This document shows positions 13,938 to 29,800 of a stretch of DNA of 64,000 bases, piece after piece. The stretch's first letter is position 1. Every line of letters starts with the position of its first letter. Both the position numbers and the translations under genes were made by a program. The notes below the pieces were generated by a model. That model saw only the letters and a list, made by a program, of their open reading frames with translations, did no database searches and was not told where the DNA came from. Source of the DNA: Lachnospira multipara LB2003 (GTDB lineage: Bacteria > Bacillota > Clostridia > Lachnospirales > Lachnospiraceae). The stretch is from positions 1 through 64,000 of the forward strand of contig NZ_JNKW01000005.1 in NCBI RefSeq assembly GCF_000702205.1. The letters are read 5' to 3'.

Positions 13938-14033
13938 ATAACCCGGTCGCTCACAAATGGAATGTTTCCATCCTATCAATCCAATCATTTGTAACCGATT
14001 TGTTCCGCACAATTTTGAAAGGAGATGATACGC

Positions 14034-14438
14034 ATGGGAACAAAAGCTGCAAAAAAGAACAGAACAAGAAATCATCAGGTTAACTTCTATATGAACGATG
14101 AAGAGTATCGTAAGTTAACCAAACTGGTAACAGAATCTGGTCTGAATAAACAGACCTACCTTATCAACGCAACACTAGGAGCAACACTTGCCAATCCAGA
14201 AGCTTTAAAAGATATCCCGAAGCTCTTGTCTGAGCTTACGGAACTTTTAAATCAGTTCAAAGGTATTGGCATCAATTGTAACCAGATGGCCAAGATTGCA
14301 AACACATATAATCAGCCAGCAAATGAAAATAAACTTAAGGAACTTGCAAACGATGTACATGAAACCGGAAAGGAGGTATTGCCACTATGTCAGTCGTTAA
14401 AGCTATTAATACGAGAGCTAAATCTTCAGCAGCATTAA
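14034..14438 (+). CDS. MobC-like mobilization accessory protein
   Basis: The 134-residue protein starts with a basic stretch and a ribbon-helix-helix-like segment ('NHQVNFYMNDEEYRKL'), followed by the MobC helical domain with 'LLNQFKGIGINCNQMAKIAN', a hallmark of relaxosome accessory proteins that help the relaxase recognise and open oriT. ATG 14034 is chosen because AAAGGAG lies 9 nt upstream; the ATG at 14025 abuts that ribosome site. It overlaps the relaxase gene by 52 nt, implying coupled translation, and sits directly downstream of the structured candidate oriT. Confidence 0.88.
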   Translation: MGTKAAKKNRTRNHQVNFYMNDEEYRKLTKLVTESGLNKQTYLINATLGATLANPEALKDIPKLLSELTELLNQFKGIGINCNQMAKIANTYNQPANENKLKELANDVHETGKEVLPLCQSLKLLIRELNLQQH

Positions 14439-15982
14439 GTAACACCCTTGACTATATCTACAAAGATAAGAAAGTCACTGAAGAGCTTAAGCTTGTAACC
14501 GGAGATTATTTTGAAGAAAAGGTTACTGCCGATCTTGTGTATCAGCAGTTCAAAGAAACAAAGAAGTTTTGGAATAAGACTGGTGGAAGACAGTATAAGC
14601 ATTTCGTTATATCCTTTCACCCAGATGAAAAGATAACTCCCGAAGAGACTTTGCTTGTTGGTAAAGAATGGGCAGAACGATGCTTTCCAGGCTTTACCTG
14701 CGCTCTTGCGAGCCACATTGATTCTGATCATTGTCACTGCCATGTAGTGGTAAATTCCGTAAACAGCATTGACGGAAGTAAAGTTCATCTGTCCAAATCA
14801 GACTTTAAACAGATGAAAAAGATTAATGATGAAATCTGTGAAGCTCATGGCTTATCTGTCTGTGTCAAAGGAAAACACTTTGATGGATCTGATATTGAAG
14901 AAGGAACTATCCGTTCCTACGATAAGAGAGATTATCGTCTTATGACAACAGATGGAAAGAAAAGCTTGAAGACAGATTGCATCAGCGCAATTCTTGCTTG
15001 TATGACTACTGCGACAAGCAAAGAAGAGTTTATCGCCCAGATGGAAGAGCACGGATATGAAGTGAAATGGGAAGATAATAGAAAGTACGTCACCTTTACA
15101 CATATCGAATCCGGCAAATCTTTTAGAAATAAGAACTTAGCAGAAACATATAGTATCGAATTATCAAAGGAGGTTTTAGAAAATGCTTTTAACAGAAACA
15201 GAACAGTTCAGAAAGAGCGGTCTGATATCACAGACGAAGGAGACCGAGAGCGCAAAGTATTGGAAGAACCAGTACGAGAAGCTACAGAAAAATACGCTAA
15301 CCCAGATGCAGATCATAGAACGTCAGCAGAAAAGAATAGCACAGTTGGAGGAAAGCCTGGCAATGGCACTTTCAGAGAATGGCCAGTTGAGAGACTTGAC
15401 CGAAGAGTTGATGAAACAGCGAAACGAACTAGAGGAATCGTTGACTGGGGTAAAAAGCTCCGCGAAACCTTTAGTCACTGCCTTGAACAGCTTAGGTCTT
15501 TCGGTTTCGGAAGTGGACTAAAGAGCAATACTCTTGAATCAGAAGCAGATAGGGTGGCAGAGCACATTGAAGATATCCGCACTAGAATTGCCGCAATCGA
15601 TCACACACTTAGAACTCAGTACCTTCCATCTCAGGGAACGGATTCGTGGATTGATAAGCAGATAACTCTTGAATATCAGGACGAATATAGACTGCTAGAT
15701 GAACTTTCAGAGCTAATCAAGTCAACCTCTCCTATGGTTCTTGCATTGGCTCAGTCAAAGCGGAACACTTTCCGCCCTGAAAAAGAAGTCGATATGCTAA
15801 GAGCTTTGACTTCAAATGAATTTGAGTTAACAAAAGAAGAAGTAGCAGACAGCTTCACAACTGCACTTGCAACTGCGGACAAGATGCTTAATAATGTTCC
15901 TTCCACTATGAAATCATTGGAAGAATCTCACGGCTGTCAGCCGATTGACCACAACATTGTAAGACGCGGGCGCAGAAGATAA
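14387..15982 (+). CDS. Relaxase/mobilization nuclease (MobP-like)
   Basis: The 531-residue protein has the relaxase domain in its first about 250 residues, with the metal-binding three-histidine motif 'HIDSDHCHCH' (residues about 110-119) and upstream 'YKHFVISFHPDE'. Relaxases nick oriT, stay covalently attached to the 5' end through a Tyr and pilot the strand into the recipient; a candidate Tyr lies in the N-terminal 'LDYIYKDKK'. The C-terminal half is polar and helical. A perfect AAAGGAGG precedes the ATG within mobC. The C-terminal part overlaps a second reading frame at 15183-15521 that also looks coding. A hairpin terminator follows 4 nt after the stop. Confidence 0.9.
   Translation: MSVVKAINTRAKSSAALSNTLDYIYKDKKVTEELKLVTGDYFEEKVTADLVYQQFKETKKFWNKTGGRQYKHFVISFHPDEKITPEETLLVGKEWAERCFPGFTCALASHIDSDHCHCHVVVNSVNSIDGSKVHLSKSDFKQMKKINDEICEAHGLSVCVKGKHFDGSDIEEGTIRSYDKRDYRLMTTDGKKSLKTDCISAILACMTTATSKEEFIAQMEEHGYEVKWEDNRKYVTFTHIESGKSFRNKNLAETYSIELSKEVLENAFNRNRTVQKERSDITDEGDRERKVLEEPVREATEKYANPDADHRTSAEKNSTVGGKPGNGTFREWPVERLDRRVDETAKRTRGIVDWGKKLRETFSHCLEQLRSFGFGSGLKSNTLESEADRVAEHIEDIRTRIAAIDHTLRTQYLPSQGTDSWIDKQITLEYQDEYRLLDELSELIKSTSPMVLALAQSKRNTFRPEKEVDMLRALTSNEFELTKEEVADSFTTALATADKMLNNVPSTMKSLEESHGCQPIDHNIVRRGRRR
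15183..15521 (+). CDS. Coiled-coil protein nested in another frame inside the relaxase gene
   Basis: A 112-residue frame lies wholly inside the relaxase gene in a different frame. It starts at an ATG preceded by a perfect AAAGGAGG about 9 nt upstream. The product is a plausible helical protein: 'YWKNQYEKLQKNTLTQMQII' followed by heptads ('RIAQLEESLAMALSENGQL') and a hydrophobic C-terminus. Chance antisense or shadow frames in this window are rich in Leu, Cys and Phe and lack ribosome sites; this one is not. It may encode a mobilization accessory factor. Function is unknown, and whether both frames are expressed cannot be proven from sequence alone. Confidence 0.6.
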   Translation: MLLTETEQFRKSGLISQTKETESAKYWKNQYEKLQKNTLTQMQIIERQQKRIAQLEESLAMALSENGQLRDLTEELMKQRNELEESLTGVKSSAKPLVTALNSLGLSVSEVD

Positions 15983-15985
15983 AAA

Positions 15986-16013
15986 ATGGCTTGGGCTTAA
16001 TCGCCCAAGCCAT
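15986..16013 (+). terminator. Hairpin terminator after the relaxase gene
   Basis: ATGGCTTGGGC and GCCCAAGCCAT form a perfect 11-bp stem with a 6-nt loop, 4 nt after the relaxase stop codon. The following T content is modest. Confidence 0.65.
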
Positions 16014-16136
16014 CTTCATCTTATACAGTAATCATGCTTACCGGATTTCAGCTTACTTCAATCTGCTGGTGCAAGAAGTCTTCCCACGTACTGATAATAA
16101 GATGCAAGATAATTAATCTTTATAATTCTAATTCAA

Positions 16137-16217: not shown

Positions 16218-17072
16218 TTACTCTAATTTTAGTAGTTCATCTAAATAAGTCCATTTCTTAAAAGCTTGTAAGGAATCGTGCCATTCGCCTTCAGATACCT
16301 GATGATTTATCTGTCCGTCATACTCACTGCTTCCATCATCGTATAAGTAGTAATATAATCCACTTCCATCTTCAACAATTATGCATTTTCCATTCTCAGT
16401 CTCTAACCACGCTGTATCGGGTATAGAAGCTACAAGTATTCTGCTCTTGACCTTACTGCATTGCATATCCGTTATGTTCTTGGACATTTTAAACGTAAGA
16501 GATTCATCCTCCGGATCAGGATTCGTCCTTTCAATTTCGAGAATATCGTAGGACAAATCATTCTTCCAAAGGGATACATCCATTTCTTCTGATGATTCAA
16601 AAGGATCTTCTCCGCTTACCTTCGTACCATCGGCAGCATAGTTGCCACTTTCTCCTTTGTATGCAATCATTAAGCGGAAAACAACCCGCTCATCCTCGCC
16701 TAGCTTTTCCCCAAGGATAATAAAATTATCACTTTTAGGTTTAATGATTTCATATGTGGTTACAGTTCCATCGAAATCCCCGAAAGCATCTTTAGAAACT
16801 TCCTCGCGAGTATCCAGCTGAAAATAATCCTCCCAGTTATCCAGCGTTATATCCACTTCCTTAAAGTACGACGAAAATTCATCTAAGGATATCGCATTTT
16901 CAGCAGCCACTTCTTCAGAACTTTTACCTGACTTATTATCTTCTGTGACCTTGCTATCAACATCATCTGTTTTTTTAGCACTCTCAGCTGAATTTCCACC
17001 ACATCCAGATTATAAAATGCATGCCATCATCAACATCGAGGCTATCAGTCCTAGCTTTCTAGAAAATCCCAT
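16218..17072 (-). pseudogene. Lipoprotein gene with a stop codon in its signal peptide
   Basis: A ribosome site AAAGGAG and ATG (17072) start a typical lipoprotein signal peptide, 'MGFSRKLGLIASMLMMACIL', interrupted by TAA (17010-17012) immediately before Ser-Gly-Cys-Gly-Gly, which would form the lipobox. The same frame is then open for about 264 codons to 16218. The secreted part is acidic and rich in beta strands and ends with 'LQAFKKWTYLDELLKLE'. I recognise no family. As written, translation from the lipoprotein start stops at codon 21; a GTG at 16910 could start a cytoplasmic version, but no ribosome site supports it. It directly follows the 664-residue membrane protein gene and was probably co-transcribed with it. 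Confidence 0.7.
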
Positions 17073-17100
17073 GTCTTGTTTCTCCTTTAAATCGTTGTTT

Positions 17101-19095
17101 TTAGTCCTGCTTTATAGCTACGAACGACAGCTTTCCACCTGTAATAGGTTCATCATCAGCCGCGTAAAATGCATAAACTGTCATTTCGTCATCAATTACT
17201 TTTTTCACTACGTATCTTGTCGACTTCTCAAAATTTTCGTCATATGCTGTGCATAGTCCATTATCGGCCTTCCAGTATACTCTACCATGTGCAGGATATT
17301 TACCGTTTGTCTTATACTTGCCACCCGATTCAAATTCATATTCTTTAGAAGAGCTTATCCATCTCGCAGACCATTTACCAACTAAAGATGTCGCTATTTC
17401 ATCATCTGTCAGCTCTGTATAGCTATCCTTATTTTTTTCAAAATAGTTGTCTTCCTTGCTATAATCCAGCTGATTTATATTGTTTATAACCTCAGCTATA
17501 AGGCACAGCTTCTGGCTATCTTTGTAATCGCCAATCTCGTTGAAAAGTTTTATTGCTTTATCAAGCTTTTGATTATTATAGTAATTTACTGCCTGTTGAT
17601 ACTTTTTCTCCATCTCCTCAGCATTTGTAGTTGCAATATACTCTGAAGCAACGGATTCAAACTCTTCAGAAGTCATACAAACAAATGGCGGTAGCCAGTC
17701 CTTATCTCTTGACTGTAGCTCTGGAACCTCATCAACAATTCTTAAAATATACTCGTATTCCCCAATCTTTATAATTGCTTCTTCATCTGATGCTGATATA
17801 AAACTCCATTCTTTTTCATACGGTTCTTTCCAACCTTGTCGTTCAACGCTGTAATTATGAAAATCTGTCATTTGTCCTTTTTCACTATCAAAGGCAAAAA
17901 CTTCAATTGGCTTTCCATCTACAATCTTGTAATACCTTGTACTTATTAAATACTTCTCATATAGTGCTTCATTCGCTACTTCTTTATCAGCTGCTATTTT
18001 CTTTGAAATAAATGAGCCGATTGTAATAGCAGCTACAATTACAACAGCTGCAATTGCAACTATAATAAATGACTTTTTTCTCTTTTTTGTGTTGGATTCT
18101 TTCGTTAATATGGCAGCTTCTTTTGCTTCCATGAGCTTTTCCGCAGAATCTTTGTAATCGGATATACTTTCAAAAATCTTTATGGCTTCTTGTATTTCAC
18201 CAATGGATGCACCTTCATGAAGTAAGCCTGTAGCCTTTTGGTAACTCTCTCTGTCAGACAAAGGATAATTACCAGAAACAATATCTACCAGAAGTTCATA
18301 TATCTCTTTACACTCGGTCATCGATCTACGCTGTTCGTCAAGGGCTTTACTAGCCATCTCTATAGTTCCGTACGCAGATTTTGAAACCTGGGACATCACA
18401 CCGCTATCATGTACAAGCTCTGTATAAACGCCCCCCTCCTGAAAGCATTCAATTACATTATTGTTGGCATACTTTTTAATTGCAGGATTTCTCTTGAATT
18501 TCTGCGCCATTGAAGACTCGATGATGATTCTATAAACAGACATCTTTCCTGCTGTGATGTATCCCTTTCCACTCATAGATACTTTTTCAGACATGGTAGC
18601 TTTGGTTTGATGAAATCCTCCCATAGCAATACCACCACTTGCAGCCCCAGTAAATATGGTCTTGGATGGATTATAAGAATACGCTAACGCGCCACCATGA
18701 TTGAGTTTTATTTCTGGGACACCTTCCGCTTTTGAGTTATCAGTCGATGTGCTGTATACGCTTCCATCAGGTCTTCTGTATATTTTGAGAATCTCTTCTC
18801 CGCGCGCACCGTCTTTCTTAGCGCTTGATAATGTCACAATGAGATTACCAGTGACACTTTCCCTTTCAATTCGCTTCTTTTCATTTTCCTCATTTTGTTT
18901 TTTTTCAGTTTCAAGCGCATCGAAACATTCCTTCGCCTCAGCAAAAAAATTCTCAATTTTACCGTATTTTAAGCCAAGATCAGTTGCTATCACCTTTGCA
19001 CGAAGACTCTGCTTTTCATCAAACATGTCAGTGTATCCGCTATCAACACATTGTTTATAAAACTCTGCTAGTTTTTGAGTTCTATCATCTGCCAT
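17101..19095 (-). CDS. Large single-pass membrane protein with YKDS repeats, function unknown
   Basis: The 664-residue protein has a cytoplasmic-looking N-terminal part of about 345 residues, one transmembrane helix (about 347-368, 'SFIIVAIAAVVIVAAITIGS') and an extracytoplasmic C-terminal part. Two segments of the pattern 'AIKIFESISDYKDSAEKL' and 'AIKLFNEIGDYKDSQKL' flank the membrane helix; this YKDS unit is a TPR-like repeat common in clostridial surface and sensor proteins. The last 110 residues form a separate small beta domain. GGAGGG precedes the ATG. It follows the HEPN-like gene by 28 nt and is followed by the broken lipoprotein gene. I cannot assign a function. Confidence 0.65.
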   Translation of the reverse strand: MADDRTQKLAEFYKQCVDSGYTDMFDEKQSLRAKVIATDLGLKYGKIENFFAEAKECFDALETEKKQNEENEKKRIERESVTGNLIVTLSSAKKDGARGEEILKIYRRPDGSVYSTSTDNSKAEGVPEIKLNHGGALAYSYNPSKTIFTGAASGGIAMGGFHQTKATMSEKVSMSGKGYITAGKMSVYRIIIESSMAQKFKRNPAIKKYANNNVIECFQEGGVYTELVHDSGVMSQVSKSAYGTIEMASKALDEQRRSMTECKEIYELLVDIVSGNYPLSDRESYQKATGLLHEGASIGEIQEAIKIFESISDYKDSAEKLMEAKEAAILTKESNTKKRKKSFIIVAIAAVVIVAAITIGSFISKKIAADKEVANEALYEKYLISTRYYKIVDGKPIEVFAFDSEKGQMTDFHNYSVERQGWKEPYEKEWSFISASDEEAIIKIGEYEYILRIVDEVPELQSRDKDWLPPFVCMTSEEFESVASEYIATTNAEEMEKKYQQAVNYYNNQKLDKAIKLFNEIGDYKDSQKLCLIAEVINNINQLDYSKEDNYFEKNKDSYTELTDDEIATSLVGKWSARWISSSKEYEFESGGKYKTNGKYPAHGRVYWKADNGLCTAYDENFEKSTRYVVKKVIDDEMTVYAFYAADDEPITGGKLSFVAIKQD

Positions 19096-19123: not shown

Positions 19124-19387
19124 TTAGGCTCTTCTCAATGATTTTACCTGATTGTCCAAAAATCTTGCCATTTCAAATCCTTCTTCCACATGCTTTTTGT
19201 AGCCATTCCTAAGTTCATCAATGTCCTTATGGAACATGGAATGTACTATCTCATTTCTGTAATTATACCATTTTTCAATCTTTTTCAGGAGGCTTTTCAC
19301 ACCGCTCGCATCAACTGAAACTTTATATACTATCCGTAGAAATTGGATATAATCTGTTTTGTCCTCCGCATCAGATATTTTTGCCAA
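19124..19387 (-). CDS. HEPN-like small protein, possibly 5'-truncated
   Basis: The 87-residue helical protein contains 'YNYRNEIVHSMFH'. This fits the R-x4-H signature of HEPN RNase domains (Arg-Asn-x-x-x-His) found in toxin-antitoxin and abortive-infection proteins. It begins at a TTG without a good ribosome site, and the frame stays open upstream for 19 more codons into the end of the previous gene, so its N-terminus is probably lost or it is fused by a frameshift. HEPN domains usually exceed 100 residues. It sits in the helicase-DUF2290 operon. HEPN assignment rests on one motif and helical character, so it is tentative. Confidence 0.5.
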   Translation of the reverse strand: MAKISDAEDKTDYIQFLRIVYKVSVDASGVKSLLKKIEKWYNYRNEIVHSMFHKDIDELRNGYKKHVEEGFEMARFLDNQVKSLRRA

Positions 19388-19424
19388 GATCTTTCTGATT
19401 ACATATATTTTATCGGAAATATTA

Positions 19425-19841
19425 TCAATCTGCTTTTTGCGCTACGGAACTATACTCATATTCAAACTTAATTACATCTGGAACTGCCTCATAATTGAAC
19501 ATGCAAATACGAGATTGATTTGGGGCCAATACAGTTTTTTCTATTTGTTTCAAAAAATCCTTATTAGCTTCTATATTGAAGCATCCTGTCAAATCTACAT
19601 CATAATCAAATTTTATAAAATGAGCTGCTGAATTCCCAAAGTTTTTTATCACCAAATAATAATAAGGCTTTTCACCTGTAATTATTGATTGTGTATATAT
19701 CGCAATATACGGTCTACTTGTACTCTCAATCATTCTATTGTTTTGCTTAAGAGTTACTATCACGGTTATAACAGATATAGCTGCCAAAGCAAATGATAAA
19801 ATACACAATATTATATTCACAATTACTGCGATATCTTGCAT
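19425..19841 (-). CDS. Membrane-anchored protein with small beta domain
   Basis: From ATG 19841 (GGGGG Shine-Dalgarno upstream) the product is 138 residues: an N-terminal membrane helix 'VIVNIILCILSFALAAISVI', a basic turn, then a beta-rich domain with 'RPYIAIYTQSI' and 'YYLVIKNFGNSAAHFIKFDY'. This pattern is common in small membrane-anchored proteins of Firmicutes mobile islands, but it has no known function. The gene overlaps the end of the DUF2290 gene region by only a few bases when the longer start is used, so translation is coupled. An A5 run near its stop could join it in frame with the downstream HEPN-like sequence by one-base change. Confidence 0.65.
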   Translation of the reverse strand: MQDIAVIVNIILCILSFALAAISVITVIVTLKQNNRMIESTSRPYIAIYTQSIITGEKPYYYLVIKNFGNSAAHFIKFDYDVDLTGCFNIEANKDFLKQIEKTVLAPNQSRICMFNYEAVPDVIKFEYEYSSVAQKAD

Positions 19842-19854
19842 TCTTCTTTTCCCC

Positions 19855-20502
19855 CTATTCAGCATATACCATTTTAAACTTGCTCAATTCATTAGCAGTT
19901 AATTTTATATCTTTTTCATACTGACAATCTATTTTTTGCAAGCATTCATCATTTAAATGATATATATATTTAAATATTAAATATAAGAATTCATATGGAT
20001 ATACCACATGCTTGAAAGGCAATCTTATACTATACTCGAAAACCCCAATATGCATATGCACTAGAGAATGATGATATTCTTGGTTTCCTTTTACATCATA
20101 ATCAATTCTAATATAATTGCTTATCCTTTTCGCAAATAATTCATCCGAAATATCCGCATCTTCCTCCTCATACTCAAATTCCATACCATCTCGATATAAA
20201 TCAAATTTATAGTTTGGCAAAAAAGAAAGATTATGCTTAATTATATCTCCATTATCATCAAAAATATAACTCATAGCAATCATAGAATCATCAAGTAAAG
20301 ACATTGTGTACTTTTCATTCCTCAGTGTACTATCAAACAATTCTTTATAGTTATGATATTTAAAATGATCTGTATTAATCCCAACTTCATATTCTGTCGA
20401 CTTATAATTAGCAACAATATTGATAATATCTATATCCTTTACCAAATCGTTCATTAGCAAAAATTGTTCTGATACAATTTTAAATTCACTTTTATTGGTC
20501 AT
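19855..20502 (-). CDS. DUF2290 family protein
   Basis: From ATG 20502 the product is 215 residues. The C-terminal half carries what I recall as DUF2290 features: 'YIRIDYDVKGNQEYHHSLVH', then 'MHIGVFEYSIRLPF' and 'VVYPYEFLYLIFKYIY'. The ATG overlaps the stop of the helicase gene (ATGACCAATAA), and a GGAAAAGAG ribosome site lies upstream, so the two proteins are made together. DUF2290 has no established biochemical role. Its tight coupling to a UvrD-like helicase on a restriction-bearing element suggests a two-component nucleic-acid defence module; that role is inference. Confidence 0.7.
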   Translation of the reverse strand: MTNKSEFKIVSEQFLLMNDLVKDIDIINIVANYKSTEYEVGINTDHFKYHNYKELFDSTLRNEKYTMSLLDDSMIAMSYIFDDNGDIIKHNLSFLPNYKFDLYRDGMEFEYEEEDADISDELFAKRISNYIRIDYDVKGNQEYHHSLVHMHIGVFEYSIRLPFKHVVYPYEFLYLIFKYIYHLNDECLQKIDCQYEKDIKLTANELSKFKMVYAE

Positions 20503-22510
20503 CTGTACTCTTTTCCAGATGTTCAATTAACTCTCTTATATTAGAAACACCTAATTGTTCTTTTAATACTTCAATTATTACTGATGAATCATCACCAACA
20601 TCCTTATATACCTTTTGTACAGCATCCATCTTTTCAGATTCAATTTTTGCTATTGATTGCATTTGTTTAAGCTTTTCTCGTGTTGGATATGTAAATGCTA
20701 ACTTATAACCATTTTTCTTTACTTCTTCGTATTCATCGCAAAAAGAAGTCATAACATCACCCGTAACGCCATAAACATATGTTTTAAATTTTGCCCTTGT
20801 CATTGCCGTAAACAATCTATTTCTTGAATATGTAGCCATATTACTCATTTTATGAGCATTTACTACAAATACAATATTGGCTTCATTACCTTTAGCTCTG
20901 AAAATAGTTGTGTATGTAATACTACCGTTTCTTTTAAACTTCAGGGCATTATCTTTATTTACAAGATGCGATTGTATCTCATCATCTTCACCACAAACAT
21001 TTCTCAATTCACCTCTAAATTCCGTAAAATTATCTTGTAATTTTAAACCGGACAGATCAATCACTAATACATCCTCTGGTAGTATATCCTCCTCATTCAC
21101 TAATCTTTTTATTTCCTTTGCAACATGCGCATATTGATCCTTCTCTTCGTCAACCGCAATTAACTCAACACATTTGTCCGGCTTATAATCTATAACATCC
21201 CTTCTATCTAACACAACCGGCGAACCAAATCCCAACGTTCCTTCAACGGTTTTATATCCTACTGCATTCCAAATAGAATAATCCTCCATCATATTTACTA
21301 TATCGGGATTTCCATCCTTATCTTTTTTATAAATTCCTAATCCTAAAGCATGAGCTGTTACCAATATTTCCTTTGGCGTTCTATAACATACACTTAAGTC
21401 AACATCTTCACACTTTTCGCTTCCAAAAATCTCACTCTTAGCCGGAATCGCTGTTGAACTATTCAAGCTCTGAAGTTCATCATACGCATATATAATTTTT
21501 CCTGTATACCTAAGCGATTTTTTTGCCATAATGAAAAATGGTAATTTAAAATCCTGTGCCTCATCTATAAAAATGTAATCATACAATGGAACCAATCCCT
21601 GTTTTTCTGTTTTTTCAAGTACTTCATTACATACAGCTGCAAATCTATCATCAGTTCCACCTTTTAATAAATACGCCCCTTGATAATTTCTACATTTTAC
21701 ATCGTTTTTTTCGCATATTTCAGAGTAGAAGCCTTTCATTTCACTTCCTCCCCACGAATGTAAAATATGAATTTTGGACATATCTGGCTCTTTGTATTTC
21801 TCAAAGTCTTTATAATAGAGTTTAAACAATTCCTTTACATACTGTTTAAGAGACTTTGTATAAAAAACATACGCTAATTCAAGTTCCGGATGTTTAAAAT
21901 GTTCATAAGCCATTTTCTTTACAAGCAGTATGGTTTTCCCACTTCCTGCCAGACCTCTTATACGCATATGAGAACTAATACTGTTGTATATTCCATTAAA
22001 CTGATTCTGATCCAACATATTCATATCGTTCGTTCTCTTTTTTATAACCGAACCAAGTGAATCTTCTTTTTTTAATGACCTATCATCTTTACCATTTAAC
22101 CCATAGAAATTCTGTATAATTCCATTTGTTTCTTTGTAAACTTGAATCGTGAATAATGGTTTAAGATCTAATTTTTCCTTGATTTTCGACAAATCACCTA
22201 ACCTAACACCTTCATATACAGCATTACCTTCAAAATACAAAGGACTAAGAGATTTACTAGACATTATAATTTTCATAAAATGTCTATTATATACCATTGC
22301 TTCTTCATCCGACTCATATAATCCTATTATGCCATTTCTAGACACAATACATGATTTCATAACATTTGTACTGCCATCCATTTCAATAATTGGATATCCA
22401 TAGTATAAAGCAATTTCTTCATCCGAGTACTGGGTCAACAAATCCTTTACTTTTTCAATTTGATCAATAACTTCTTGTGATAAGCCATTGTATTCTCCAT
22501 AAATTCGCAT
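20492..22510 (-). CDS. Superfamily I (UvrD-like) ATP-dependent helicase
   Basis: The 672-residue protein has an N-terminal region of about 170 residues that could be a nuclease-like or recognition domain, then SF1 helicase motifs. These are Walker A 'RGLAGSGKTILLVKKMA' (about residues 186-202), Walker B 'DYIFIDEAQDF' (about 315-325), a motif III/IV-type segment 'VCYRTPKEI', and the C-terminal 'RNRLFTAMTRAKFKTYVYG'. These place it with UvrD/Rep-like and phage-defence helicases. It starts 20 nt after hsdS and overlaps DUF2290, so it belongs to the same transcript as the type I system. The N-terminal domain has no motif I can name. Confidence 0.82.
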   Translation of the reverse strand: MRIYGEYNGLSQEVIDQIEKVKDLLTQYSDEEIALYYGYPIIEMDGSTNVMKSCIVSRNGIIGLYESDEEAMVYNRHFMKIIMSSKSLSPLYFEGNAVYEGVRLGDLSKIKEKLDLKPLFTIQVYKETNGIIQNFYGLNGKDDRSLKKEDSLGSVIKKRTNDMNMLDQNQFNGIYNSISSHMRIRGLAGSGKTILLVKKMAYEHFKHPELELAYVFYTKSLKQYVKELFKLYYKDFEKYKEPDMSKIHILHSWGGSEMKGFYSEICEKNDVKCRNYQGAYLLKGGTDDRFAAVCNEVLEKTEKQGLVPLYDYIFIDEAQDFKLPFFIMAKKSLRYTGKIIYAYDELQSLNSSTAIPAKSEIFGSEKCEDVDLSVCYRTPKEILVTAHALGLGIYKKDKDGNPDIVNMMEDYSIWNAVGYKTVEGTLGFGSPVVLDRRDVIDYKPDKCVELIAVDEEKDQYAHVAKEIKRLVNEEDILPEDVLVIDLSGLKLQDNFTEFRGELRNVCGEDDEIQSHLVNKDNALKFKRNGSITYTTIFRAKGNEANIVFVVNAHKMSNMATYSRNRLFTAMTRAKFKTYVYGVTGDVMTSFCDEYEEVKKNGYKLAFTYPTREKLKQMQSIAKIESEKMDAVQKVYKDVGDDSSVIIEVLKEQLGVSNIRELIEHLEKSTDDQ

Positions 22511-22529: not shown

Positions 22530-23990
22530 TTATAGTTTTTCGCAAAAGGGTAATAATTCCTCTATCTTATCAACAATACGCCGTTGCTCTTTAACCGGAG
22601 GTACTGGAATTACCAGATTAATAATAGCCGCCTGAAATAGATTCGCTTGAGCTGTTTGCTTGGTTTTTTCCCTAATTTGCATCTGAACACACTCAGATTG
22701 AATCGCATACATTAAGTATTTTGAGTCTATCAAAATAGGCGAAATCATTGCAGCACTTCGAACCATAACATATTTATTTTTATCTCTTATGCAAGTACAT
22801 CTTCCTACACTTCCAGAACACGATAACAAAATGTCACCCTCTTGGGGGTTACATCGCATTGATATTCTTTTATATTCTTCCTCGTCAACATAATCAACAT
22901 CATCTAGCCTGATAGATCCATTTAAAACATTCCTTGCTGATAATAAATAATATCCGCAAAACTTCTTCACTCTATGTGGGGTTTTATGTTCTCCATCTGT
23001 AACTTTAGATGATAATTCCCCTACCTTTATCCATTTCCATGAATCTGGTATATCAAATGGTATATCAAAATCAGAAATATCTTCTAATTTTTTCTCCTTC
23101 TTAATCTTTCCTTCGTTTAATAGTTTTTGTTTTTCTTCTTGTATCTGCTGATATAATTCTTCAGCCGTTCCTTCTTCCAGTCTCTGCTCCACCAATTTGC
23201 CTTGAACAGCATACTGAAGGATAGACTTCTTCATATCCTCCGGGAACTTAGCATTAAACTGTTCCAGCTTCTCATAAACCTCGGCATAGCGGTCAACAAA
23301 TGGCAAGACCTCTTTCAATCTATTGATAATTCGAGTCATTTCAGCCTCTGGGGGAAGAGGAATAAAGAACCCATTAATTGTGTCCATTGAAATGTTATCA
23401 TTTGTAGAATTTTTACTTAGTTGTATTACATTTTGTGTTATTGGTGAAAGAATAACATAATTGACATATTCATTTATATCGCATAGACACTTTATCGTTG
23501 CAACACGCTGGTTGGTCATCATCTTCTCAGGCAATTTCTCAACAAAATAGCTCTTTCCAACTGTTCCTCCGGTCATACATAAGAGAATGTCCTTTTCGCC
23601 TAATAGGTACGACTTTAAATCATCTGAATATGGGTGTCTGACTATCTTTGTATTAATAAAACCCTCTTCATTAAAATCTGATATCCTTACAACACGAACT
23701 CCATCTGTCGTATAATTGGTACTCTTAAAGGCATATCCACCATTTATATATGCAACATCTCTTAAATATACCCACTTCCAGCTCTCCGGAATATCGAAAG
23801 GATATTCATCAGCAGATATTTCTTCATTGGTTTTATTTTTTTTGATTATACCGACCTTAATCAACTGTTGTTTTTCATGCTGTATACGCTGATAAAACTC
23901 ATCCGCAGTGCCATCTTCTGTCTTCTGTTCTACCAATTTGCCCTGAATGGCACATTGTAAAATACTTGCCTTTAATTGTTCAGGTGTCAT
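22530..23990 (-). CDS. hsdS: Type I restriction-modification specificity subunit HsdS
   Basis: The 486-residue protein has the classic duplicated HsdS layout. A conserved block ('ILQCAIQGKLVEQKTEDGTA' then 'IPESWKWVYLRDV') begins the first target recognition domain, and a near-copy ('ILQYAVQGKLVEQRLEEGTA' then 'IPDSWKWIKVGEL') begins the second at about residue 255. Each domain ends with a 'PLPPEAEMTRI'/'PVPPVKEQRRI' coiled-coil lead-in. The two domains determine the split DNA recognition sequence for both methylation and cleavage. The gene overlaps hsdM by 4 nt. The recognition sequence cannot be predicted by eye. Confidence 0.93.
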   Translation of the reverse strand: MTPEQLKASILQCAIQGKLVEQKTEDGTADEFYQRIQHEKQQLIKVGIIKKNKTNEEISADEYPFDIPESWKWVYLRDVAYINGGYAFKSTNYTTDGVRVVRISDFNEEGFINTKIVRHPYSDDLKSYLLGEKDILLCMTGGTVGKSYFVEKLPEKMMTNQRVATIKCLCDINEYVNYVILSPITQNVIQLSKNSTNDNISMDTINGFFIPLPPEAEMTRIINRLKEVLPFVDRYAEVYEKLEQFNAKFPEDMKKSILQYAVQGKLVEQRLEEGTAEELYQQIQEEKQKLLNEGKIKKEKKLEDISDFDIPFDIPDSWKWIKVGELSSKVTDGEHKTPHRVKKFCGYYLLSARNVLNGSIRLDDVDYVDEEEYKRISMRCNPQEGDILLSCSGSVGRCTCIRDKNKYVMVRSAAMISPILIDSKYLMYAIQSECVQMQIREKTKQTAQANLFQAAIINLVIPVPPVKEQRRIVDKIEELLPFCEKL

Positions 23991-25468
23991 TCTACAGCAC
24001 CTCCCGTAAGTAAGGCTTCAAGTTCAGCAAGAACCTTGTCTATTTCGGCATTAAGAGTAGTCCTCTTTTCCTGATAATTTCTAATAGTATCAAGAGGATC
24101 AAGAACTTCTTCTTCCTCATGAGGGAATCCACAAAGATCAATATTACATCCCTGATCCTTCACAAGAAAATCTGTTGAATACTTCTTTGCCTTCGGTCCA
24201 TCTTCAAGTTCAATTTCTTTTCTGTCATTCCACCAAGCTATTACATCATCGAAATGCTTCAGCTCCATTGGCTTCGTCTTTGAGAAATGCTTTCTGTCAG
24301 AAGGCATATCGACTCTATAAAACCATGTTTCGCCCGTCGGTTTAGTATTATCAAAGAACAGAAGGTTCGTTGATATGGATGTATACGGACTAAATACGGA
24401 TCCCGGCAATCTGATAACGGTATGCAGATTAAACTCTGTAAGAAGTTTTGTCTTTATCGCTACTTTTGCATTATCAAGACCAAATAGGAATCCATCAGGA
24501 ACAACAACCGCAGCTCTGCCGTTCTTCTTCAGACGGTACATGATAACTGACATAAAGAGATCCGCTGTCTCAGATGAAGCCAGGTCATCCGGAAAGAATC
24601 CCTGAATTGACTTATCCTCATGACCACCGTAAGGAGGATTCATCATAATAACATCAAACTTGTCATCGTCTGTATAATCAAGAAGGTTATGCTTCAGAGA
24701 GTTCATGTGATAGATATTCGGCACTTCTATATCATGCAGGAGCATATTGGTAACACAAAGAAGGTAAGGGAAAGGTTTCTTTTCAATACCATAGATACTG
24801 TCATCAAACTGCTTCTGTGCAGCTGTATCCTTTACTTGCTTCTGTAACTGCCCGAGCCATGATGTAATAAAGCCTCCTGTACCACATGCAAAATCAGCCA
24901 TCTTCTCACCAAGTTTAGGCTGTATCATAAGAGCCATAAAATCTGTTACGGCACGGGGAGTGTAGAACTCACCGGAAGATCCGGCAGCCTGTAAGTCACG
25001 AAGAATCTCTTCATAAACAAAACCAAAAGCGTGACTTTCCTTCACATCATCAAATTCAATCTCATCAATAATATCAATGACCTGACGAAGATATACACCG
25101 TCCTTCATATAGTTGTTGGCATCCTCAAAGGTAGACTTTACAATAGCCTTCTTTACAGGAGTATCCGGTGTTACATCTAAATCCTTTAATGTTGGGAAAA
25201 GCGTATTGTTAACAAAGTTCAGTAACGTATCTCCCGTCATCGCATGACCATTATCATCTACCTGCGCCCAATTACGCCATCTACATTCTTCCGGAATAAT
25301 AGATGTATAATAATCCTCATTCAGTTCCCAATCATCTTCCTTAGCATCATATACCTTCAAAAAAAGCATCCATACCATCTGCTCAATTCTCTGCGCATCT
25401 CCGTTAATACCCGCATCCATACGCATAACATCTCTTATTCTTTTTATAAAGCCTGACTGCATTGCCAC
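23987..25468 (-). CDS. hsdM: Type I restriction-modification DNA methyltransferase HsdM
   Basis: The 493-residue protein has an N-terminal helical domain ('RRIRDVMRMD'-type start, then 'YLRQVIDIIDEIEF'), and an N6-adenine methyltransferase domain. That domain carries the AdoMet site 'ADFACGTGGF' (about residue 200) and the catalytic 'NPPYGG' (about 278). A C-terminal coiled coil binds HsdS. HsdM2S methylates adenine in the recognition sequence and joins HsdR for restriction. The gene is preceded by a small membrane-protein gene and overlaps hsdS by 4 nt. Length is typical. Confidence 0.94.
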   Translation of the reverse strand: MAMQSGFIKRIRDVMRMDAGINGDAQRIEQMVWMLFLKVYDAKEDDWELNEDYYTSIIPEECRWRNWAQVDDNGHAMTGDTLLNFVNNTLFPTLKDLDVTPDTPVKKAIVKSTFEDANNYMKDGVYLRQVIDIIDEIEFDDVKESHAFGFVYEEILRDLQAAGSSGEFYTPRAVTDFMALMIQPKLGEKMADFACGTGGFITSWLGQLQKQVKDTAAQKQFDDSIYGIEKKPFPYLLCVTNMLLHDIEVPNIYHMNSLKHNLLDYTDDDKFDVIMMNPPYGGHEDKSIQGFFPDDLASSETADLFMSVIMYRLKKNGRAAVVVPDGFLFGLDNAKVAIKTKLLTEFNLHTVIRLPGSVFSPYTSISTNLLFFDNTKPTGETWFYRVDMPSDRKHFSKTKPMELKHFDDVIAWWNDRKEIELEDGPKAKKYSTDFLVKDQGCNIDLCGFPHEEEEVLDPLDTIRNYQEKRTTLNAEIDKVLAELEALLTGGAVE

Positions 25469-25491
25469 TTTTTAATTACCTCTTTTCGCAT

Positions 25492-25998
25492 TTATACTAT
25501 ATCGTTATTATCTAATTGAGACATTTCTGAATTTCCACCTAACACTGTCGCTAAAGTCAGAATTCCCACACCAATAACAGTTAAAACACCACCCGCTACC
25601 TTTAATCGATACATGCGCATTTCCTTATTTGCAGCAGACAATTTATCCTGAAGTTTATCCAATCGATCCATAATCTGAAATTTCTCTTCAAGCGTTAGTT
25701 CATTTTCATCTAGCATTTTTATTAGTTGCTGATTCTCAGCATCAATCATTGCAATAAGTGCATCATGATTCTTATCACCACTTTTAATCACATTCTCAGC
25801 AATTTCCTTATACTGAGCGACACCATCTTTTACTGCATTGGCAAAATTAGGAAACTGCTCTAATGCCTTTTTTGCCACTTCCGGATCCATTTTCTGAATA
25901 GATGAGGCAAAGCGCATTACCGTATCTTTACTAAGATGTCTAAAATCTTCTATCTTTAGTTGTTTTAAAACCTTTTTTTCCGAAATTGTTCTACTCAT
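25492..25998 (-). CDS. Small tail-anchored membrane protein between hsdR and hsdM
   Basis: From ATG 25998 (GAGGTGG ribosome site inside the end of hsdR) the product is 168 residues. The first about 125 are charged helix with coiled-coil character ('EEKFQIMDRLDKLQDKLSAA'), and one hydrophobic helix near the C-terminus ('VAGGVLTVIGVGILTLATVL') would anchor it to the membrane. I recognise no family. Its position inside a type I operon, between the nuclease and methylase genes and with translational coupling to hsdR, suggests a functional link such as regulating or localising the complex, but nothing in the sequence shows what it does. Confidence 0.65.
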   Translation of the reverse strand: MSRTISEKKVLKQLKIEDFRHLSKDTVMRFASSIQKMDPEVAKKALEQFPNFANAVKDGVAQYKEIAENVIKSGDKNHDALIAMIDAENQQLIKMLDENELTLEEKFQIMDRLDKLQDKLSAANKEMRMYRLKVAGGVLTVIGVGILTLATVLGGNSEMSQLDNNDIV

Positions 25999-25999
25999 C

Positions 26000-28333
26000 T
26001 TATCCCACCTCAATTGCATATATATTATCTTCTAATTCCTTTATTGCTTGATCATACTGTACCTTGCCCCCAAAAAGCTTAACTATCTTTGCTGGCTTTC
26101 CATATTTTTCAAAATCAGCTAATGAAAGGACCTTAATATCTTCAACCTCACTGATGCCTTGATTCATATACTTATCCAAAAGTATCTCAAGAACAGCTCG
26201 TGCGTCTCCAGAATACTTTGAAAAGAAATCACGTTTCTTAACATTATTAGCTCTTTCAGCTCTTGTAAGGGGCTTCTGACCGTATGCCACATAACAAATA
26301 AAATCAAAATCATCTACATCCGACATACCCTGATTTTCTTTTAATGCTTTTAAATCAATGCCCATTTCTGCAAATGATTTCTCAATTTCCTCTTTTTTAT
26401 CTGATGCCTTCCACTTACGAATGAAATCAGATAAAGAGGCATACTCACCCTTTATGTTTGTTCTCGTATAATCAATGATATCTTCCTGCCGAAGTAGCTT
26501 TCCATTTGCATCATATACAGAAACAGTCTTATTAATTACCTTTACACGACATCCATCTTTATCTACAATAGGTTTTTCAACATGGTCAATAATGATTGGT
26601 GGCTTCTCACCCGGTTTTGCATACGGAGTTCTTGGTACAGAGCCTGGTTTAAATCCTTCATCCTGCTCGATCGGACCATCCCAATCTGGATCAGTAAATA
26701 ATCTAGTGACATTTCTAAAATCCATTACTACAAAATGGGTCTTTCCTTCTTTTTCGCGGATTCTAGTTCCACGCCCAATGATCTGCTTAAATGTCGTCAT
26801 GCTCTCAACAATCTTGTCTAAAACAATAAGTTTTGTCATCTTACAGTCTGCACCTGTTGAAAGTAGTTCAGAAGTTGTAGCAATAACCGGATAAGGTGAT
26901 GATACTGAAATAAAGTAATCCAATTTTGATTTACCAAAATCATCACTTCCCGTAATTCTTACACAGTAATCTGGATTCTTCGCTACCATATCTTGATTTA
27001 ACTGACACAAAGCATTTCTCATAAGCTCTGCATGAAGCTCATTTGCGCAAAATACAATCGTTTTCTGCATACGATCTGTGCTCTTAAGATATGCTGTTAT
27101 CTCATCCGCCACTTGATTAATACGATCTTCGAGAATAATGTTATAATCATAATCTTTATTGTTATAAACTCGATCCTCGATTTCATTTCCATATAAATCT
27201 GTCTGTCCCTTATAAGGTCTCCAGCCTTCACCTATATTAGTTGTAATGTTAATAACCTTAAAAGGCGCAAGGAATCCGTCCTCAATCCCTTGCTTTAGGC
27301 TATACGTGTAAACGGGATCTCCAAAGTAATCAATATTTGATACTTTCTCACTTTCCTTTGGAGTTGCAGTCATACCAATCTGTGTTGCACTCGAAAAGTA
27401 TTCAAGTATCTTTCTCCAATTACTATCTTCTTTTGCTGAACCACGATGACACTCATCAACAATAATCAGATCAAAAAAATCCGCCGGAAAAAACTTGAAT
27501 CTTTCCTCATCATTTTGGCCAACCATCTGCTGATAAAGGGCAAAATTAACCTCATATGACATGATTTTTTGAATATCATCGTGAGCGAAATCCACCTTAT
27601 GTATTGTTTTTTCCAAAGGCGCAAAATCTTGAAGGATGCTCTGATCCACAAGAATATTTCTGTCAGCCAAATACAAAATACGCTTCTTTAAGTTTGCTTT
27701 AAGCAATCGATACACAATCTGGAAAGCAGTATATGTTTTGCCTGTACCCGTTGCCATAACCAACAATAATCTTTCCTGTCCATCTGCAATACGTTCTACT
27801 GTTCTATTAACAGCATTTCGCTGATAATATCTTGGTGGATACGTGCTTTGGCTAGAGTAGTACGGCTGATTAATAATCTTCTTTTCAGCCTCTGTAATAC
27901 CTGCGCCACCATTCATTTCTTGATAAAATCTCTCCACAAGTTCTTCTTGTGTTGGAAACTCTTCAAGAGAAAGCTGACGTTCTTTACCTGTTAAAAAATC
28001 ATGCTCATAAAAACCATCTCCGTTGGAACTATACGCAAATGGCAAATCCATCATTTGTGCATATGTAATTGCCTGCTGAAGTCCAAAAGAAACTGTATGA
28101 TTATTATCTTTTGCCTCAACAACAGCGATTGGTTTTCCTGTATTCAAATAAAGCATATAGTCGCAGTACTTTGGCTTACTTCTTGCGACCATATTTCCCC
28201 TTAAGTTAATTCGACCATCTGTAATTTTGGTCTCCATTGTAATATGACCACTCCACCCTTTTTGAATCGCGGGTGTTATGTAATTTAACTTAATGTCTTC
28301 TTCAGACATCTGCTTTTTACTTAAAACAGTCAT
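26000..28333 (-). CDS. hsdR: Type I restriction endonuclease subunit HsdR (EcoEI-like)
   Basis: The product is 777 residues from ATG 28333, chosen for AAGGAGGG just upstream. It has an N-terminal PD-(D/E)xK-type nuclease region ('DYMLYLNTGKPIAVVEAKDN', with Asp and E-x-K), then an SF2 translocase with Walker A 'VMATGTGKTYTAFQIV', DECH box 'IVDECHRG', 'GMTATP', and the C-terminal motif 'IGRGTRIREKEG'. The last about 150 residues match the EcoEI R-subunit C-terminal domain. HsdR pumps DNA and cuts away from the recognition site. It is the first restriction gene after the XRE regulator. Confidence 0.93.
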   Translation of the reverse strand: MTVLSKKQMSEEDIKLNYITPAIQKGWSGHITMETKITDGRINLRGNMVARSKPKYCDYMLYLNTGKPIAVVEAKDNNHTVSFGLQQAITYAQMMDLPFAYSSNGDGFYEHDFLTGKERQLSLEEFPTQEELVERFYQEMNGGAGITEAEKKIINQPYYSSQSTYPPRYYQRNAVNRTVERIADGQERLLLVMATGTGKTYTAFQIVYRLLKANLKKRILYLADRNILVDQSILQDFAPLEKTIHKVDFAHDDIQKIMSYEVNFALYQQMVGQNDEERFKFFPADFFDLIIVDECHRGSAKEDSNWRKILEYFSSATQIGMTATPKESEKVSNIDYFGDPVYTYSLKQGIEDGFLAPFKVINITTNIGEGWRPYKGQTDLYGNEIEDRVYNNKDYDYNIILEDRINQVADEITAYLKSTDRMQKTIVFCANELHAELMRNALCQLNQDMVAKNPDYCVRITGSDDFGKSKLDYFISVSSPYPVIATTSELLSTGADCKMTKLIVLDKIVESMTTFKQIIGRGTRIREKEGKTHFVVMDFRNVTRLFTDPDWDGPIEQDEGFKPGSVPRTPYAKPGEKPPIIIDHVEKPIVDKDGCRVKVINKTVSVYDANGKLLRQEDIIDYTRTNIKGEYASLSDFIRKWKASDKKEEIEKSFAEMGIDLKALKENQGMSDVDDFDFICYVAYGQKPLTRAERANNVKKRDFFSKYSGDARAVLEILLDKYMNQGISEVEDIKVLSLADFEKYGKPAKIVKLFGGKVQYDQAIKELEDNIYAIEVG

Positions 28334-28415
28334 ATAACCCTCCTTAACGCATTCCACACGTTCTACACTTTTTCACAATAATTTAACCACTAACAGTGTC
28401 CCATATATTGGACTC

Positions 28416-29153
28416 CTATAAAGATAATGGCACATTTTTTTCAGAGCTTGTTTTTGTTAAAACATATCCTTTATCTTCTTTTGTAACCTCAACACTAGTT
28501 TGCAGATAGCATTCTTCTCCTATCAATCCATCAATCTTATTTACAAGTGCTACAGATATTCTTAGCGATATAAGATTTAATTCAATGTCTTTTATCTGGT
28601 TGAAAACGTCTTCACTAGCTGTAAGGAATGTAACCTTTGAATCCGGACTGATAACCTCAGCTTCTTTACTTCCAAGGATTCCAAGAATATCTTCTTTTGT
28701 TACGTTATCCTTTGTTACCGGAATGAAGTACCAACTTTCAAATGGTGCACCTTCAATCTTTGCGCAAAGTGGTGCACCGGCTGTTCCATCACTTACAAAC
28801 TGCCACTTGAAGCTAGTTCTACAAAGTGTTGGTAGAAGAGTGTTCATTGGTGACCACTCACTATTTACCATAGTCGCACTGATATCATCATCTTCATATT
28901 TATCTGAATCATATCCGGCAGCTTCTAAAAGCTCTTTATAAGATGGGCCTTGTGATACAAGGGCTATCTTTTTTAATGTCTGCGGTGTTGGCGTTTTATC
29001 TTCGCGCAGGTTCTTATACTTACTTAAGTATGCATAACTTATTTCTGCATCCTTTGAAAACTGCGCGACAGTTCTTGTACCAATTGCAGCCATCAATGCT
29101 TCGCCGAATTTATCTTTATCAAACTTAAAATCTGGTTCTACACTTCGTTTCAT
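28416..29153 (-). CDS. XRE-type helix-turn-helix regulator
   Basis: The 245-residue protein has an N-terminal helix-turn-helix of XRE type (residues about 12-75: 'FGEALMAAIGTRTVAQFSKD' and 'ISYAYLSKYKNL'). The larger C-terminal domain, of mixed alpha/beta with 'ESWYFIPVTKDN', is probably a sensing domain. It opens the leftward cargo operon. A promoter with an AT palindrome just upstream of its -35 precedes it, and three similar palindromes lie further up, so autoregulation and control of the restriction genes are likely. This would delay restriction until methylation is established after transfer; that purpose is inference. Confidence 0.82.
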   Translation of the reverse strand: MKRSVEPDFKFDKDKFGEALMAAIGTRTVAQFSKDAEISYAYLSKYKNLREDKTPTPQTLKKIALVSQGPSYKELLEAAGYDSDKYEDDDISATMVNSEWSPMNTLLPTLCRTSFKWQFVSDGTAGAPLCAKIEGAPFESWYFIPVTKDNVTKEDILGILGSKEAEVISPDSKVTFLTASEDVFNQIKDIELNLISLRISVALVNKIDGLIGEECYLQTSVEVTKEDKGYVLTKTSSEKNVPLSL

Positions 29154-29176
29154 GCGTAATCCTCCATTTAAGCTCT

Positions 29177-29206
29177 ATTATACTACGGAATCGATATTTT
29201 GTCCCA
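29177..29206 (-). promoter_or_regulatory. Promoter of the XRE regulator
   Basis: On the minus strand the -10 TATAAT (29177-29182) is perfect, and GGGACA lies 17-18 bp upstream as a weak -35. An operator palindrome abuts the -35, which fits repressor control. Confidence 0.55.
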
Positions 29207-29207
29207 T

Positions 29208-29359
29208 TAAAATATATTTTATTTCTACTCGAAACTCTGTTCAAATGTGCCTTTCTATATTCTAAAATATATTCTATTGCATTTTAGAATATATTTTATT
29301 GTTGCATTCCTGTATTTTCTGTGTATAATGTTAATAAAAGATATATAGAATATATCCTA
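29208..29359. promoter_or_regulatory. Four-copy palindromic operator cluster
   Basis: The 14-mer pattern TANAATATATNNTA occurs at 29208-29221 (TAAAATATATTTTA, a perfect palindrome), 29263-29276, 29285-29298 (the last two are exact reverse complements of each other) and 29346-29359. The placement around the regulator promoter suggests binding by the adjacent XRE protein. Confidence 0.55.
29302..29329 (+). promoter_or_regulatory. Rightward promoter candidate for the recombinase operon
   Basis: TTGCAT (29302-29307) and a perfect TATAAT (29324-29329) are 16 bp apart, between two operator copies. It would give a leader of about 470 nt before the first gene. Confidence 0.4.
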
Positions 29360-29751
29360 TTCTATATTCTATAAAAACTCTGGTTTATTTTTAGTAATCA
29401 ATGAAATATCAACCCATATATAGGGTATAAGAAAAAATTTTGGGCTTCAGTTTAGTAATGAGCGATTTAGACCCCCAAATGTATATAGAGGGATAGATTT
29501 CTGCAGATTCAGACCTGAACTGTCCCATATGTTTTATGAAAGGGCATAAGCCCATATATTTTTTTGAAATTTATTTTAAAAATTTACACGAGTTTTTTAG
29601 TAATCGGTTCTGACTCGGTCCAAATATAAGGTAGATGGATAAGAAGTAAATCGGATGCAATCACTTGTAAATGCTTACTTAATACAGCATCCACTCTTAT
29701 TACTTCGTCCATGATATCCGCAGGTGATATCACTTAAGAACTTTTGGTATC

Positions 29752-29767
29752 AACTCCAACTGGAGTT
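29752..29767. repeat. Inverted repeat before the small gene
   Basis: AACTCCA-AC-TGGAGTT is a perfect 7-bp inverted repeat. Its core TCCAACTGGAG also occurs at the left element end (13479-13489), next to the matching GTGATATCAC palindrome, so the same protein may bind both. Confidence 0.45.
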
Positions 29768-29800
29768 TACATACAAATTTTAAGAAAGGAGGGCACACAT

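Follow-up and report, generated by a model that had tools for sequence, protein, structure and literature searches.

Results and Discussion

A Helicase+DUF2290 pair behind a type I restriction operon

We analyzed 64,000 nucleotides of Lachnospira multipara LB2003 (contig NZ_JNKW01000005.1, positions 1 to 64,000; hereafter the window), in which four minus-strand frames at positions 19124-22510 lie behind a type I restriction operon. The first two of these genes, for a superfamily 1 (SF1) helicase and a DUF2290 protein, are very probably an intact, divergent Firmicutes member of the known Helicase+DUF2290 anti-phage system, which is carried as second cargo behind the restriction operon, with the frames further downstream being remnants. 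An earlier note had described the four frames as one anti-phage module and knew of no described system with this set. A defence role is supported for the helicase and DUF2290, since both proteins match PADLOC defence models and the published pair inhibits T7, whereas the four-gene module is not supported, since the membrane and HEPN frames had no homologue in 97 helicase loci and look like remnants. The novelty claim fails because the pair already is a named system; an exact match to such a system is what the note itself had set beforehand as speaking against its proposal. All four listed frames are present at this site:

20492-22510, minus strand: SF1 (UvrD-like) helicase, 672 aa; PADLOC and Pfam matches, motifs and AlphaFold2 model
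19855-20502, minus strand: DUF2290 protein, 215 aa from ATG 20502; PADLOC and Pfam PF10053 matches, invariant residues
19425-19865, minus strand: membrane-anchored beta protein, 146 aa, probable C-terminally shortened stub with longer relatives; not part of the pair
19124-19441, minus strand: C-terminal HEPN fragment (RNEIVH) with an 87-aa piece at 19387-19124, probable remnant; not part of the pair

The helicase matched the PADLOC model 'Helicase' (PDLC03002) with an E value of 2.2e-117 and 391 bits, residues 117-663 aligning to positions 141-698 of 707, and Pfam UvrD_C_2 scored above its cut-off. The DUF2290 protein matched both PADLOC 'DUF2290' models (PDLC02999, E 1.8e-18; PDLC02998, E 7.5e-16) and Pfam PF10053 with 52.8 bits (cut-off 25). 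The same PADLOC models were matched by the E. coli pair, at 2e-265 for the helicase and 2e-77 for DUF2290. Activity of the Helicase+DUF2290 pair against phage T7 was reported by Rousset et al. 2022 (PMC9122126); the variant name Rst_HelicaseDUF2290 occurs in two papers, and 'Rst Helicase+DUF2290' is listed among the defence helicases compared in the Hachiman paper (PMC12278908). As in the published system, the window pair has two genes, helicase first, overlapping or abutting on one strand, with the same PADLOC and Pfam models and a mobile carrier. It differs in belonging to a divergent clade, in being carried together with a type I operon by a mobilizable element and not by a P4-like satellite, and in the two remnants downstream.

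The DUF2290 frame as listed opens at a TTG; ATG 20502 is the likelier start, and from there the gene overlaps the helicase stop by 11 bp. The helicase starts at ATG 22510 and hsdS ends at 22530, which confirms the close spacing described in the earlier note and corrects the gap from 20 to 19 nt.

Strict pairing and scattered distribution of the two genes

The earlier note had proposed co-occurrence of helicase and DUF2290 as a check, and this was clearly borne out, as a DUF2290 gene was found directly downstream of the helicase and on the same strand in 86 of 92 related loci. Of these 92, 80 come from genomes and 12 (L094-L105) from a total of 79 viral loci, and adding L008-L012 gives the 97 loci used for flank searches (L008 and L010 appear to duplicate the contigs of L015 and L025). 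L013, with a DUF2290 fragment only and no helicase, and L106, which ends inside the helicase, are outside the counts, as are L107-L172, which hold shorter helicase stretches (E 6e-10 or worse). The loci are best matches and not a random sample, they are not independent of each other (e.g. L014/L015 and L029/L030), and the counts include split or partial DUF2290 frames (L048, L057, L081 and L093). Among the 85 pairs other than L105, the two genes lie within 25 bp of each other in either direction in 75, they overlap in 59, and in 30 the overlap is exactly 4 bp; in L105 it is 14 bp. Four of the six loci lacking DUF2290 end no more than 29 bp past the helicase stop.

In a class-level sample of 391 genomes the helicase was found in four, including the window's own, and in the other three it adjoins a DUF2290-type gene in every case. 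Even the most distant helicase (L190:1068-3718, E 1e-49) has a DUF2290-like neighbour (E 2.5e-5), and because of this the pairing may be older than the family defined by PADLOC. The L190 neighbour itself had no PADLOC match at E 0.001.

DUF2290 is rare and scattered. It was found in 3 of 61 near relatives and, across the phylum, in 5 of 398 genomes; both counts include the window's own genome, which has one copy. None of 14 control genomes had it. This sporadic spread argues against a housekeeping role. Of 5426 complete E. coli genomes, 25 contain DNA of the E. coli pair, and each of the eight records listed also shows a tyrosine integrase. A search of plasmids with the pair DNA gave no match, and an Rfam search found nothing.

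Some observations weigh against assigning the window pair to the system. The helicase of the window copy is only about 31% identical to that of the E. coli member (L021). L047 has no clear DUF2290 gene, with one weak match of 27 residues (E 0.006). Finally, in L073 a PLD-family protein (positions 3039-3893; PLDc_2, E 7.7e-18) stands where DUF2290 would be, 53-59 bp behind the helicase. The window copy groups with L014-L017 in a tree of 78 helicases (support 1.0), and activity of this divergent copy against phage is a prediction.

The L073 arrangement may represent an effector swap, seen in this one locus. PLD-family matches to the L073 protein were found in 7 plasmid records and none in viral contigs.

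One could also regard the module as decaying and nonfunctional, given the two probable remnants directly downstream and the position of the copy on a divergent branch. We consider this unlikely, since both the helicase and the DUF2290 frame are intact and keep all residues that are invariant in their families, and since the closest relative within the genus has an intact pair with a 63% identical helicase and a 49% identical DUF2290 protein.

The link to type I restriction is real in the window but not obligatory

The type I restriction operon is the first cargo and lies upstream of the pair, spanning 22530-28357 as a whole:

28357-26000, minus strand: hsdR
26019-25492, minus strand: 175-aa protein between hsdR and hsdM
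25468-23987, minus strand: hsdM
23990-22530, minus strand: hsdS

The association on which the earlier note relied thus exists in the window, but it is not obligatory, because an HsdM-like protein was found in just 12 of 96 helicase loci within the flanks collected (HsdR-like in 9 and HsdS-like in 3; L105 has none). This also bears on the idea that the pair could back up the restriction genes of its operon, with phage anti-restriction proteins as the trigger, as Ocr is for PARIS. The pair begins only 19 nt past hsdS, the published pair acts on T7, and PARIS is reported to sense T7 Ocr (PMC9122126). Against this stand the few HsdM-like loci, some of which have the gene several kb distant, and a back-up function is therefore improbable in our view.

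The 175-aa protein (25492-26019) has a hydrophobic stretch at its C-terminus, overlaps the end of hsdR and gave a weak JetC-like PADLOC match (E 1.5e-6).

The downstream membrane and HEPN frames are probably remnants

The earlier note had counted four genes; the frames are there, but they represent two complete genes and two probable fragments and not four working genes. Relatives of the membrane protein were found in 3 of 115 other genomes (G012, G467 and G052) with open frames of 177, 181 and 244 aa, and judged by eye the 146-aa window protein stops before the C-terminus of these relatives. The protein had no match in viral contigs and one weak match in plasmids. The second frame does carry the R-x4-H signature (RNEIVH) on which the proposal of a HEPN fragment was based, but it covers just positions 113-190 of 191 of Pfam HEPN_RiboL-PSP, and the score stays below threshold (21.2 bits, gathering score 28.4). 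The frame is open upstream to TAG 19444 with no ATG or GTG before TTG 19387, and the first in-frame GTG (19300) and ATG (19237) are both internal. No match to this piece was found in plasmids, and the single match among relatives (G026, 30% identity across 66 residues of a frame of 494 aa) appears to reflect coiled-coil resemblance to a protein of mobilization type. Both frames are probably remnants, because the membrane protein has longer relatives and only the C-terminal part of the domain is left in the HEPN piece, and we infer a deletion that fused the start of one gene with the end of another. As an active toxin the HEPN piece was rejected: its domain is incomplete and this site has no intact gene with a complete HEPN domain.

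Joint action of all four products (helicase, DUF2290, membrane protein and HEPN RNase) as a new defence system would fit the four adjacent or overlapping frames on one strand and the R-x4-H signature. However, neither the membrane protein nor the HEPN piece had a homologue at E 1e-3 in the flanks collected for the 97 helicase loci, both frames are incomplete, and in the closest relative of the same genus DUF2290 is followed by a 456-aa frame that matches neither of them. For these reasons the four-gene system was rejected, and we regard it as extremely unlikely.

The helicase has a predicted UvrD/Schlafen-like core and a faintly NERD-like N-terminus

The conserved SF1 core of the helicase starts around residue 165. 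Its Walker A motif (GLAGSGKT, 186-193) and DEAQD motif (316-320) are intact, and the motifs are invariant across 78 sequences. The AlphaFold2 model was good (predicted local distance difference test, pLDDT, 86.5; predicted template modelling score, pTM, 0.85), and its residues ~131-602 superimposed on UvrD with a Z-score of 19.2 (3.5 Å over 368 residues). The model also resembled human SLFN11 (Z 17.9, 3.5 Å, 323 residues), HelD, and GajB of the Gabija system (Z 14.0, 6.8 Å, 341 residues), and Schlafen 11/14 ranked at the top in Foldseek. At the sequence level the Pfam Schlafen helicase model was below its cut-off for the window helicase (13.1 bits, cut-off 24). Because the model resembles UvrD, SLFN11, HelD and GajB, the predicted structure is that of an SF1 DNA-helicase core. 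The likeness to Gabija consists of this UvrD-type core shared with GajB and of weak PADLOC GajB matches; no GajA was among the matches listed for the ten genes scanned (the best 25 for hsdM and hsdS).

In the first 130 residues of the model the elements follow the order alpha-beta-beta-beta-alpha-beta. Possibly, this region is a NERD-type PD-(D/E)XK nuclease and DUF2290 is just a sensor or adaptor. An hhalign comparison of the N-terminus with seven NERD sequences scored 32.7, as compared to at most 21.6 in 150 column shuffles, with a probability of 42-47%, and the alignment places D52 in the register of the catalytic aspartate. In a panel of real families, however, the NERD cluster scored just 27.6 (probability 11%) and came fifth among the non-self families; one family without identification reached 54%, and three of the non-self families match in the P-loop region. 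Position 52 is a D in 68 of 78 sequences and a K in the window copy, an E-x-K near this position was found in just 10 of the 78 in a loose pattern search, and none of 58 helicase N-termini matched Pfam NERD. A PDB sequence search with the N-terminus gave no match (best E 0.33). A nuclease in the N-terminus with DUF2290 as adaptor is thus very unlikely.

As an active nuclease the N-terminus of this copy was rejected, in view of the K at position 52 and the rarity of E-x-K (10/78). It is at most a dead nuclease-like domain, for which a NERD origin may be kept as a weak candidate on the basis of the alignment.

DUF2290 has seven invariant residues and a possible kinship with TumE

Seven residues of DUF2290 are invariant in 77 sequences and all are kept in the window protein (D71, R132, D134, H145, H149, R160 and F172). 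By eye, this motif pointed to TumE (DUF6516), a toxin reported to inhibit translation, with RNase activity proposed and unproven (PMC10584680); DUF2290 goes unmentioned in the available text of that paper. When DUF2290 was compared with a profile of 11 TumE sequences, 81 columns were collinear and the D-G-S strand, the R-x-D, the His cluster and the last helix fell into matching columns. The hhalign score was 26.1; none of 150 column shuffles exceeded 18.1, and reversing the profile gave 13.1. When the collected loci were clustered into a panel of 97 families, TumE was the best of the 96 non-self ones (27.5, next 22.1), a modest margin, and the predicted order of strands and helices in DUF2290 is by eye compatible with TumE.

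Several points count against this kinship. The match is weak, with an hhalign probability of just 13-20% (P 0.001-0.002), and since TumE was chosen by eye from the DUF2290 motif the statistics are not blind. With the DUF2290 model (pLDDT 81.3, pTM 0.82), Foldseek returned nothing at E 0.001 or better, and the best VIA-align hit had a Z of 5.8, which is under the noise level stated for the tool. The kinship is therefore a lead and not a test passed, because the probability is only 13-20% and TumE was picked by eye. TumE was not among the listed fold-search rows for the model, which excludes nothing, a PDB sequence search with DUF2290 gave no match (best E 0.11), and no TumE relatives were found in viral contigs. 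As compared to TumE-TumA, DUF2290 shares the register of the R-x-D and His motifs with the toxin, but its partner is a helicase and not the TumA antitoxin, and it is about twice as long.

A sensor helicase with a toxin effector as a tentative model

A full-text search for DUF2290 retrieved no account of the mechanism of Helicase+DUF2290 from the literature text available, and according to a 2023 review the role of the helicase domain in this system has not been explored (PMC10952713). The strict pairing, the conserved motifs and the UvrD/Schlafen-like core are observed here; the sensing, the activation and the toxin chemistry of the following model are inferred. The SF1A helicase would patrol DNA and recognize replication or recombination intermediates of phages or plasmids, and would then activate the co-translated DUF2290 protein. 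The invariant D-R-D-H-H-R set could be the active site of a TumE-like, RNase-type toxin, which would stop translation and thereby lead to abortive infection or act in plasmid conflict. In this detail the mechanism is tentative.

The main alternative for the chemistry is that DUF2290 is a DNA nuclease, restrained by the helicase in the way that HamB restrains HamA in Hachiman, and freed on damaged or phage DNA, which would then be degraded. The Hachiman layout is likewise a helicase with a small partner (PMC12278908), the invariant D/R/D/H/H/R set also fits a nuclease, and the PLD-family protein in the DUF2290 position of L073 looks as if one nuclease had been swapped for another. On the other hand, the PLD case is a single locus, and no HamA-type partner was found, as the DUF2290 protein matched only DUF2290 models in PADLOC at E up to 0.01. 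The search for a nuclease fold suggested in the earlier note came out negative too, since neither Foldseek nor VIA-align gave the DUF2290 model a convincing match among solved structures. We still consider the DNA nuclease a real possibility, if not a probable one. We favour a sensor helicase with a toxin effector and give RNase-like chemistry and a DNA nuclease about equal weight; the PLD protein of L073 is compatible with either.

A TumE-like toxin is also compatible with observations on the Pseudomonas aeruginosa PAO1 pair PA1372-PA1371, which has been assigned to the Helicase+DUF2290 system (PMC11637435). Mutations in the PA1372 helicase were reported to relieve the cost of plasmid pNUK73 and the SOS response, and according to the authors expression of the pNUK73 rep gene was lowered (PMC4410645). 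By this published assignment the pair is the same system as in the window; it belongs to a different lineage and has a plasmid and not a phage phenotype.

With slightly more reserve still, we propose that DUF2290 might be an expanded member of the TumE superfamily of toxins, controlled by a DNA-sensing SF1 helicase instead of an antitoxin, and that the element described below might carry defence cassettes between genera of one family. If true, this would mean a translation-targeting toxin gated by a helicase, and a carrier that moves whole restriction and defence operons between genera. The possible TumE kinship together with the seven invariant residues makes the question of RNA versus DNA cleavage directly testable.

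The pair is cargo of a Tn554-like element with a variable defence slot

Judged from the gene content around it, the module is cargo of a mobilizable, Tn554-like element with a recombinase trio, inserted in a tad-like pilus operon:

13294-36794, strand not assigned: mobile element, with approximate ends taken from the limits of DNA shared with four other genomes
14025-15982, plus strand: mobilization module, MobC/NikA-like protein and MobA/VirD2-like relaxase
15982-16017, scored on both strands: terminator-like hairpin behind the relaxase, which forms the left border of the slot and is conserved in all five elements
28416-29153, minus strand: XRE-like helix-turn-helix (HTH) gene (sub-threshold Pfam HTH matches), right border of the slot
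30075-35503, plus strand: three tandem tyrosine recombinases (370, 638 and 629 aa) and a 128-aa DUF6262 protein
35522-36792, plus strand: actin-like (Alp7A/ParM-type) protein and a 117-aa neighbour

The recombinases through to the actin-like gene span 30075-36439, and the module lies between them and the MobC/relaxase genes. In Tn554-type transposons two large tyrosine recombinases lie in tandem, with a small protein after them. The window element likewise has tandem large tyrosine recombinases with a small protein, and a similar target region in five hosts; it differs from Tn554, as far as these general traits allow a comparison, in having three recombinases, a relaxase, an actin-like gene and a slot for defence cargo. 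No Tn554-named model was among the NCBIfam matches for the recombinases and the DUF6262 protein.

DNA of the recombinase block had any match in 18 of 397 genomes, the window's own included. It was 96.7% identical over 28454-36794 in G012, of the same genus, and 98% identical in three other genera of the same family (G1116, G1025 and G1030); the other 14 matched at 63-88% over short stretches. This gives five copies of the element, which are about 94-98% identical in DNA: the window, G012:C19 (L187, L179), G1116:C4 (L238, L239), G1025:C36 (L240, L241) and G1030:C20 (L242, L243). In the window, G012, G1116 and G1030 the element is flanked by a tad-like operon that includes a T2SSE ATPase, while the flank frame tested in G1025 matched nothing and its flanks resemble those of the window only at the DNA level.

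The shared DNA begins at the same element bases in all five copies (window ~13294), and in four of four comparisons the left block (~94-96% identity) stops no more than 5 bp from window position 16017, just past the hairpin. On the right, shared DNA starts within the XRE gene, toward its 3' end (window 28454-28512); in G1116 this gene is just 72% alike. Between these borders the cargo differs in all five copies, and the longer frames listed read from the XRE gene toward the terminator. The window carries type I restriction and Helicase+DUF2290; G012 carries DrmA, DrmB, a cytosine methylase, a type II enzyme and an HNH protein; G1116 a cytosine methylase and an HNH enzyme; and G1030 a cytosine methylase and a type II enzyme. 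In G1025 we found two methylases and a type II enzyme along with two helicases, one of 1192 aa (best match C3a193, then DpdF and PsyrT) and one of UvrD type (with RTasNERD-Hel as its best model). Five copies thus held five different restriction or defence sets, and several of the cargo proteins had no PADLOC match. The only DNA similarity detected between the cargos of the window and G012 was 110 bp of the membrane-protein gene (72.7%, window 19726-19835), of which G012 has a longer copy beside the terminator.

Our literature search found nothing tying Tn554 to restriction-modification in Lachnospiraceae, or to defence-system cargo since 2019. With the Helicase+DUF2290 system already known, the cargo slot and the testable idea on DUF2290 chemistry are the new parts of this work. 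Other copies of the element may reveal further defence systems when the DNA from the relaxase terminator to the XRE gene is read.

One such candidate was seen in two of the copies. Neighbouring proteins of ~500 and 352 aa with similar starts occur in different cargos (L239:989-3557 and L243:1703-4299), had no PADLOC match at E 1e-5, and are a candidate for a defence or restriction pair of a new kind. At the terminator end of the window slot (16218-19095) there are two more cargo genes, of 230 and 664 aa, with no family above cut-off; the 664-aa protein has a likely membrane segment and weak TPR matches. At the right end of the window element an extra 238-aa frame is found (36794-37607); at this place a different short sequence is common to the other four copies.

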